The notes beneath the pieces are model-generated. The model was not told the DNA's origin, did no database searches, and was given only the letters and a program-made list of their open reading frames with translations. A stretch of 64,000 bases of DNA, taken from assembly GCF_037893015.1 (NCBI RefSeq), contig NC_133664.1, positions 128,270,254 through 128,334,253 of the forward strand, in the 5' to 3' direction. Both the position numbers and the translations under genes were made by a program. How positions within the stretch are numbered: the stretch's first letter is position 1; each line of letters opens with the position of its first letter. Origin of the DNA: Macrotis lagotis. Lineage: Eukaryota; Chordata; Mammalia; Peramelemorphia; Peramelidae. This document shows, piece after piece, positions 41,203 to 43,408 of the stretch.

Positions 41203-41799
41203 TTTAAATTTATTTAAACTTAACAATTTAGGAGGATGGCCTGTGTGTAAAATAATAAAATTAAGTGAATACAGTACTATGCCCAAGCCATTGGGATTTA
41301 GATGAGTTTTTTTTTTTGTGAGATCAGTCATTTTGATCTGAGAGCAGGGACCTAGTCCCTGTTTTCTGTAGTCAAAGAGTAGTCTGTGTCTGTTTTATAG
41401 ATATTTACTGATAAATCAGTTTAATGCATCTGCACTTCAGATCTATGAGATAGCATGTAACCTATTTTTTGATTTGAGATGTGGACAAGATTGTTTACTG
41501 AGCATTGTTTCTACTGTCATGTCACACTTGACTGACATTTTCTCATTTACTTTCAGAATTCAATTTATAAAGTAGCTTTTTTTAAATGAATAGTAACATT
41601 CATGTTCTTTTTGTTTCTAGTGCAGAAATTGTGACTCATTGCATTTAGAATATTAAGAATTTGTAAATACTGATTAAAGTTCCTTTATTTTGACCTCAAG
41701 CATAATTTATTCTTTTAATTTTCTCCTTCAGTTATCCTTCTTAAACTTTGATGTCTGTTTTGTATAGCTGTAACTTGTTTTGCCTTGAGGCTTTTTTTT

Positions 41800-41937
41800 A
41801 GGTTTTTTTGCAAGGCAAATGGGGTTAAGTGGCTTGCCCAAGGCCACACAGCTAGGTAATCATTAAGTGTCTGAGACCGGATTTGAACCCAGGTACTCCT
41901 GACTCCAAGGCCGGTGTTTTATCCACCTAGCCGCCCC
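41800..41937 (-). repeat. WSINE body of the composite
   Basis: GCAAGGCAAATGGGGTTAAG through TATCCACCTAGCCGCCCC. Complete apart from the 8-bp A-box deletion. Confidence 0.9.
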
Positions 41938-41954
41938 AAACATGAGAGCTGGTA

Positions 41955-42026
41955 GGGGGGCACCTGGATTTGAACCAGGGACCTCTTGATCTGCAGTCAA
42001 ATGCTCTACCCCTGAGCTAAACCCCC
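41955..42026 (-). tRNA. tRNA-Cys(GCA)-like gene, probably a retroposed copy
   Basis: 72 nt with all four arms. D arm GCTC/GAGC, anticodon stem TTTGA/TCAAG with loop CTGCAGA (anticodon GCA at 41994-41992), T arm CCTGG/CCAGG with loop TTCAAAT, acceptor GGGGG/CCCCC. A box TAGCTCAGGGG and B box GGTTCAAATCC are intact. Against function: position 73 is C, not the U expected for Cys-tRNA synthetase recognition; pair 7:66 is U-U; and no T-run terminator follows. Compared with the usual mammalian tRNA-Cys, one T-stem pair has changed on both sides (C-G to U-A). It is the head of the composite retroposon, so a pseudogene is likelier than an active gene. Confidence 0.8.
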
Positions 42027-42489
42027 AATCTTGCCTTGAGTCTTAAAATCTGTCTCTCCACTTTCCTTGTCACCACCTGTCTCTTTGTTGAAATTAATAT
42101 ATTTTTAGACTATGTTCATTATGTGATGTTTATGGAAATTACATGTATGGTCAGTGTTTGTCAGATTCAGATAAAAGGGAGTGTCTTGAGATTCTCTTTC
42201 CCCCTACTCCTCCTTCCATGTTTATATACTCTTTATCCTCATGCATTCCCCCAAATGTGTTCCATCTCTTCCTCCTTTCCCTAGTATTGTCCTTTATTCC
42301 TCTCATTTCCTTTTTCTGCTATTCTTACTTAACATTCATTTTGATCCTTAAGGCATTTTTGCTCTAAAAGAACATTTACTCCTTTGCCTCTTATTACCTT
42401 GTAATCATGCATCCTTACATAATTTCTTTTAACTGACCAAATGTTGTGTTTCTTTCTTTTTCTGTTCTTCTGCATTTCTACAGCCCTGA

Positions 42490-43232: not shown

Positions 43233-43261
43233 ACAAAATTTTTCAGGAATGTATGATACTG

Positions 43262-43408
43262 GAGCAACTAGGTGGATAGAGCACTGACCCTGGAATCAGG
43301 AGGACCTGAGTTCAAATCTAGCCTCAGTCACTTAATAATTACCTAGCTGTGTGACCTTAGAGAAGTCACTTATTGTGACTTAATGTGCCTTGCCAAAAAA
43401 TAAAAAAA
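43262..43408 (+). repeat. WSINE with 15-bp target-site duplication
   Basis: Flanked by perfect GAATGTATGATACTG (43247-43261 and 43409-43423). The head lacks about 10 bp (CAACTAGGTGGATAGAGC). Confidence 0.95.

Follow-up and report, generated by a model that had tools for sequence, protein, structure and literature searches.

A 64,000-nt stretch of Macrotis lagotis DNA (hereafter the window) carries on its minus strand a full-length tRNA-Cys, a WSINE1-type SINE and an A tail, all of them inside one target-site duplication. Reading along that strand, a TTTT (42045..42048) precedes the unit and creates a nick site, TTTT/AAGA, which resembles the L1 site TT/AAAA. It is followed by the 5' copy of the duplication, AAGACTCAAGGCAA (42031..42044), by four extra bases, GATT, localized between the duplication and the first base of the tRNA (42027..42030), and by the tRNA-Cys (GCA) itself (41954..42026). 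A 16-nt stretch, ACCAGCTCTCATGTTT (41938..41953), connects the tRNA with the SINE (41794..41937), which begins at its own first bases, GGGG, lacks 8 bp of the A box and ends in an A-rich tail. The 3' copy of the duplication, AAGCCTCAAGGCAA (41780..41793), closes the unit. The SINE half, one among many SINE-like hits in the window, is presumably a WSINE1, judging by its sequence.

The tRNA half was identified as tRNA-Cys(GCA) by both ARAGORN and Rfam (RF00005, 62 bits, E 1.6e-12), and it is the sole Rfam match at the gathering score in the whole window. The first-pass annotation had described a tRNA of the same identity with a length of 72 nt; the sequence comprises 73 nt, with one extra C before the discriminator T, which is thereby shifted to base 41954. 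Position 7 is a T, versus A both in the closest genomic gene (L039, see below) and in the human tRNA-Cys shown in PMC10870365. The Rfam match marks a non-standard pair at both ends, and the canonical acceptor stem and own terminator of a functional tRNA-Cys gene are absent from the window copy. Free RNA folding of the unit gave z values of 0.03 and -0.94, nothing above chance, and at its lowest energy the tRNA half does not fold as a cloverleaf. Neither a scan of bacterial/archaeal contigs for the junction nor scans for the SINE core in viral and in bacterial/archaeal contigs returned a match, a result that is uninformative for a marsupial.

The direct repeat, initially given as 10 bp, does bracket the whole unit and, more accurately, spans 14 bp with one mismatch (13/14 bases shared by the two copies), starting right after the TTTT. 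When this 14-mer was searched at a match of at least 13/14 on both strands of the window (127,972 positions), solely these two copies were found. Random upstream stretches gave an equally good repeat in 13 cases out of 2955 and, with A-rich matches left out, in 45 out of 19,750. Since such repeats also arise in random stretches, the repeat taken by itself provides good but not overwhelming evidence, and the duplication supports one event only jointly with its position and with the nick site. The best repeat around the SINE alone measures 5 bp and that around the tRNA alone 4 bp, so that neither half possesses its own duplication. For comparison, 16 other SINEs of the window were picked from 35 other SINE-like hits. 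Thirteen of them displayed a repeat score of at least 9, the remaining three (51217, 13260, and 53820) scoring 5 or 6. Ten of these 13 have the repeat at 0-2 nt from where the SINE begins; for the other three, the start position used by the script falls inside the SINE and, by eye, two abut the repeat and one (29409) is ~6 nt off. The chimera contrasts with these copies in that the repeat is found outside the tRNA.

A similar bracketing could be imagined if a tRNA-Cys retropseudogene had inserted between the 5' duplication and the body of an older SINE, and both halves are indeed common retroposition substrates (PMC5322556; PMC3403934). Such a succession of two insertions would require landing at the exact SINE start without leaving an A tail and, with neither half showing a duplication of its own, it is very improbable. 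The locus combines two RNA-derived parts within one target-site duplication, an L1-type nick (a near match to the L1 endonuclease consensus TT/AAAA; PMC13174262), an A-rich 3' tail, and an upstream part that derives from an RNA encoded elsewhere (L039-like) and is joined at its 3' end, as in a chimeric retro-insertion. This evidence supports that one insertion event with L1-type hallmarks carried the tRNA-Cys together with the SINE, in agreement with the first-pass annotation, which had seen them as a single bracketed unit.

The origin of the tRNA half was searched in the host genome (3.66 Gb) with the tRNA plus the linker as query. This yielded 31 tRNA-Cys-like places, 30 of which were examined, and 20 of the 31 are grouped in C7:96.43-96.57 Mb. 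The best source-like gene, L039 (C7:96494215), is encoded on the same contig as the window, and its only differences from the window tRNA are one substitution (A7 -> T in the window) and the inserted C. Past its discriminator T, L039 continues with ACCAGCTGTCTCATGTTTTGGACC, a trailer that runs into a TTTT terminator. All 16 bases of the window linker align with this trailer (16/16, one 2-nt gap), the last three T falling at the position of the TTTT. The alignment score of 13.5 was reached by none of 20,000 random 19-mers, whereas the next best distinct tRNA-Cys trailer scored 9.5. A SINE search (E 1e-5) covering ~1.5 kb on each side of L039 detected none. Based on the trailer match and on the lack of a SINE near L039, the stretch between the two halves, formerly described as a 17-nt linker, corresponds to a precursor-tRNA trailer whose TTT is the terminator, and the first base of the SINE follows directly after this TTT.

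The exact trailer followed by TTTTGG is present at two places of the genome (C7:96494287 and C2:66524117), each of them downstream of a tRNA-Cys sequence, the C2 gene showing three further base differences from the window tRNA. Allowing up to two mismatches, 6 places were found (4 with two mismatches) against 3 in the reversed-pattern control. As the chimera lacks two trailer nucleotides and has an extra C, L039 is to be regarded as the nearest source found, not as a proven parent. Moreover, the window tRNA reads as N in the genome copy (L001 1676-1745, L009 1518-1587), although the examined genes of the tRNA-Cys cluster are readable, so that other sources or copies may be hidden by this masking. 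On the 5' side, the GATT had been interpreted as a 4-nt leader fitting a Pol III start. This interpretation is not supported, as the 5' flank of L039 reads ...GGGCC, and GATT as a pre-tRNA leader is absent from the printed 5' flanks of 30 of the 31 tRNA-Cys-like loci. These four bases are perhaps untemplated.

The mechanism originally put forward was that a SINE inserted behind a weakly terminated tRNA-Cys gene was transcribed jointly with it by Pol III and the fusion was then moved by L1. Several features are in line with this proposal, including the lack of a TTTT stop between the two halves, as already pointed out in the first-pass annotation, and for 770 nt from 42030, the presence of both A- and B-box patterns in the tRNA versus only a B box in the SINE half, and the rare form of this SINE, without a full A box. 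In another tRNA-Cys gene, L053 (C7:96466188), an antisense SINE is inserted at the T-run terminator, indicating that SINEs do land at tRNA-Cys T runs, there in the other orientation. However, the halves of the chimera are joined precisely where the source-like gene has its TTTT, none of the 30 tRNA-Cys-like places examined (of 31) has a sense SINE directly behind the tRNA (the parent locus that had been predicted), and an L1-like nick is lacking at the possible duplication starts located 7-20 nt upstream of the SINE. A SINE-bearing parent locus with read-through was rejected on two grounds, the TTTT of L039 at the join and the failure to detect a SINE in its vicinity. Pol III read-through in general is improbable, while the notion of a single tRNA-Cys/SINE insertion with L1-type hallmarks is retained. 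A linker that is a trailer ending at the terminator and joined to the exact 5' end of the SINE fits a jump of the reverse transcriptase instead.

The unit is thus likely to be the product of a single L1-mediated chimeric insertion in which SINE RNA was copied first and the reverse transcriptase then jumped to pre-tRNA-Cys. According to this model, the L1 machinery would nick the target at TTTT/AAGA and reverse transcription would be primed at the A tail of an RNA of the WSINE1 type and proceed to the very 5' end of this template. The reverse transcriptase would then jump to the UUU 3' end of a nuclear precursor tRNA-Cys still bearing its trailer and copy it up to the mature 5' end, which implies a 5'-processed and 3'-unprocessed molecule. 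Around four untemplated bases (GATT) might be appended ahead of second-strand joining, and the whole unit would finally be enclosed by the 14-bp target-site duplication. That the trailer extends into the Pol III U run suggests that the copied RNA was 3'-unprocessed and hence probably nuclear.

An end-to-end join may also be produced if the 3' end of the pre-tRNA and the 5' end of the SINE RNA were ligated first and retrotransposed as one template, and RNA ligation before reverse transcription would give much the same product as a template jump. A primary Pol III SINE transcript would bear a 5' triphosphate and a pre-tRNA a plain 3' OH, ends that would be unsuited to the RtcB route. Ligation has been published as an alternative for U6/L1 chimeras (PMC13174262); for the present unit it is an unlikely origin, if less so than joint transcription.

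The template jump has precedents in the literature. Chimeras of U6 with L1, L2 and SINEs were ascribed to template switching, which U6 may favour through its nuclear location and its Pol III U run (PMC4476161). The same source cites pre-tRNA retropseudogenes and states that no pre-tRNA has been found in the cytoplasm of vertebrates, and unprocessed tRNAs are listed among the substrates of L1 (PMC5322556). On the other hand, PMC4476161 also holds arguments against the jump model, which slightly reduce its likelihood. It suggests that U6 and U6atac may be the only RNAs involved in template switching, says that experiments did not reproduce U6/Alu chimeras, and counts fewer than 10 qualifying copies of U6 per marsupial genome.

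Compared with these known systems, the U6/L1 and U6/SINE chimeric pseudogenes likewise consist of a Pol III RNA with a U run joined in sense to a retroelement and, in the clear cases, lie inside one duplication with an L1-type nick, as observed here (PMC4476161). The SINE partners reported for them (PMC4476161) include Alu, Mon-1 and AnolisSINE2, while in the window the donor is a trailer-bearing pre-tRNA-Cys and the partner a marsupial SINE of the WSINE1 type, joined from its first base onward. In the tRNA/LINE-1 chimeras (n = 21), too, one event placed tRNA sequence next to an element mobilised by L1, with a duplication and nick motif, but they are mostly antisense tRNA halves next to LINE-1, ascribed to twin priming, whereas the present tRNA is full length, in sense, trailer-bearing and located beside a SINE (PMC13174262). 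Tailless and unprocessed tRNA retropseudogenes share the use of unprocessed tRNA by the L1 machinery; these are truncated at the 3' side and carry no second element, in contrast to the complete 3' end and SINE fusion seen here (PMC5322556). WSINE1 itself is likewise a short tRNA-headed SINE with an A tail and target-site duplications for which L1 mobilisation is expected, and the available description of this element, which is absent from opossum, includes no second tRNA, unlike the window unit (PMC3403934). The WSINE1-type repeats of the window are in keeping with an Australasian marsupial as host. In the open-licence literature, tRNA/L1, U6/L1, U6/Alu and other U6/SINE chimeras were found, and a pre-tRNA/SINE chimera in a marsupial was not. 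Chimeric retro-insertions are therefore already known, and this unit adds a pre-tRNA/SINE variant, not a new kind.

The SINE copies of the window have the tRNA-related head, the poly(A) tail and the target-site duplications of WSINE1. This element is further distinguished by a truncated 41-nt CORE sequence. Compared with the consensus of 9 window copies, the SINE half of the chimera shows 4 differences over 112 sites. Its 8-bp A-box loss, first noted as a trait of the fused unit, is real and sits between two GTGG repeats, with a junction at about 41922/41923. The short form, with these 8 bp gone, has 213 exact matches in the genome versus 56,693 for the long form (~0.4%), a ratio that is approximate since the two search patterns differ slightly in length. 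The same loss was found in 6 of 7 other examined best-matching genomic copies, which were chosen for their likeness. An older SINE copy of the window (43257-43408), with 20/112 differences and its own 10-bp duplication, shows it as well. Recurrence in this window copy (43262), in the best-matching copies and among the genomic matches rules out that the loss is peculiar to the chimera. It looks like sporadic slippage, and it could also mark a SINE subfamily. For several CORE-SINEs aligned in PMC3403934, deletions were not observed in the tRNA-related part, the region in which the window copy lacks 8 bp. That the chimera carries such a rare form (~0.4%) is a small coincidence which the template-jump model leaves unexplained. 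Judged from their sequence differences, the two halves look to be of similar, modest age, the tRNA with its trailer showing one substitution, one inserted C and the 2-nt gap relative to L039.

It had also been suggested that the unit represents a new SINE subfamily born by the acquisition of a second tRNA head. The A- and B-box patterns of the tRNA and the A tail are compatible with a founder or member of such a family, but second copies of the fusion were not encountered. The linker with up to one mismatch is present at 36 places of the genome versus 4 in the reversed control, and it is exact only at the window locus; 29 of the 35 other linker places were examined and contained no N run, nor did a tRNA-Cys end appear in their printed flanks, the masking limiting this search. 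The linker/SINE junction with up to two mismatches was found at 381 places, again exact only at the window locus, with 31 places having one mismatch and 349 two. Of the 31 one-mismatch loci, 29 were examined, and these showed neither a tRNA nor a masked stretch upstream. Because several copies with different target-site duplications, as a family would display, are lacking among the places examined, a search limited by masking, a new SINE family was rejected. A family with two tRNA heads is extremely unlikely and the fused insertion seems to be a one-off event.

Even as a single event, the unit captures a proposed step in the gain or change of tRNA heads by SINEs, with a likely source gene known nearly to the base, and it records how mobile elements could acquire new parts. 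The trailer ending in a U run tells which form of the RNA was copied, which makes end-to-end template jumping testable. In a genome search for GGTTCRAATCC followed by a WSINE start within 12-42 bases, 29 places were found. One of them (C7:79366018-79366055, minus strand) shows a tRNA-Leu-like 3' end and then, in the same orientation, TCTC and a WSINE start. A tRNA-Leu query matched there over 83/83 positions with 81% identity (C7:79366034-79366116, same strand), this being one of 16 matches. The tRNA-Leu/WSINE neighbour at C7:79366018-79366116 is a possible second tRNA/SINE chimera. It may tentatively be proposed, though with considerable doubt, that the L1 reverse transcriptase repeatedly lands on precursor tRNAs as templates when it leaves the 5' ends of marsupial SINE RNAs, the Cys and Leu units being two catches of this process. 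If true, an ongoing process would be handing SINEs new tRNA promoters, and the jump would be marked as a nuclear event.

Several of the 29 places are SINE-in-SINE pairs, apparently nested insertions, in which the break falls at or close to ACCTAGCT within the SINE. This break is a possible hot spot for nested insertion, and it would fit a nick at TT/AATA with a duplication of ~15 bp.
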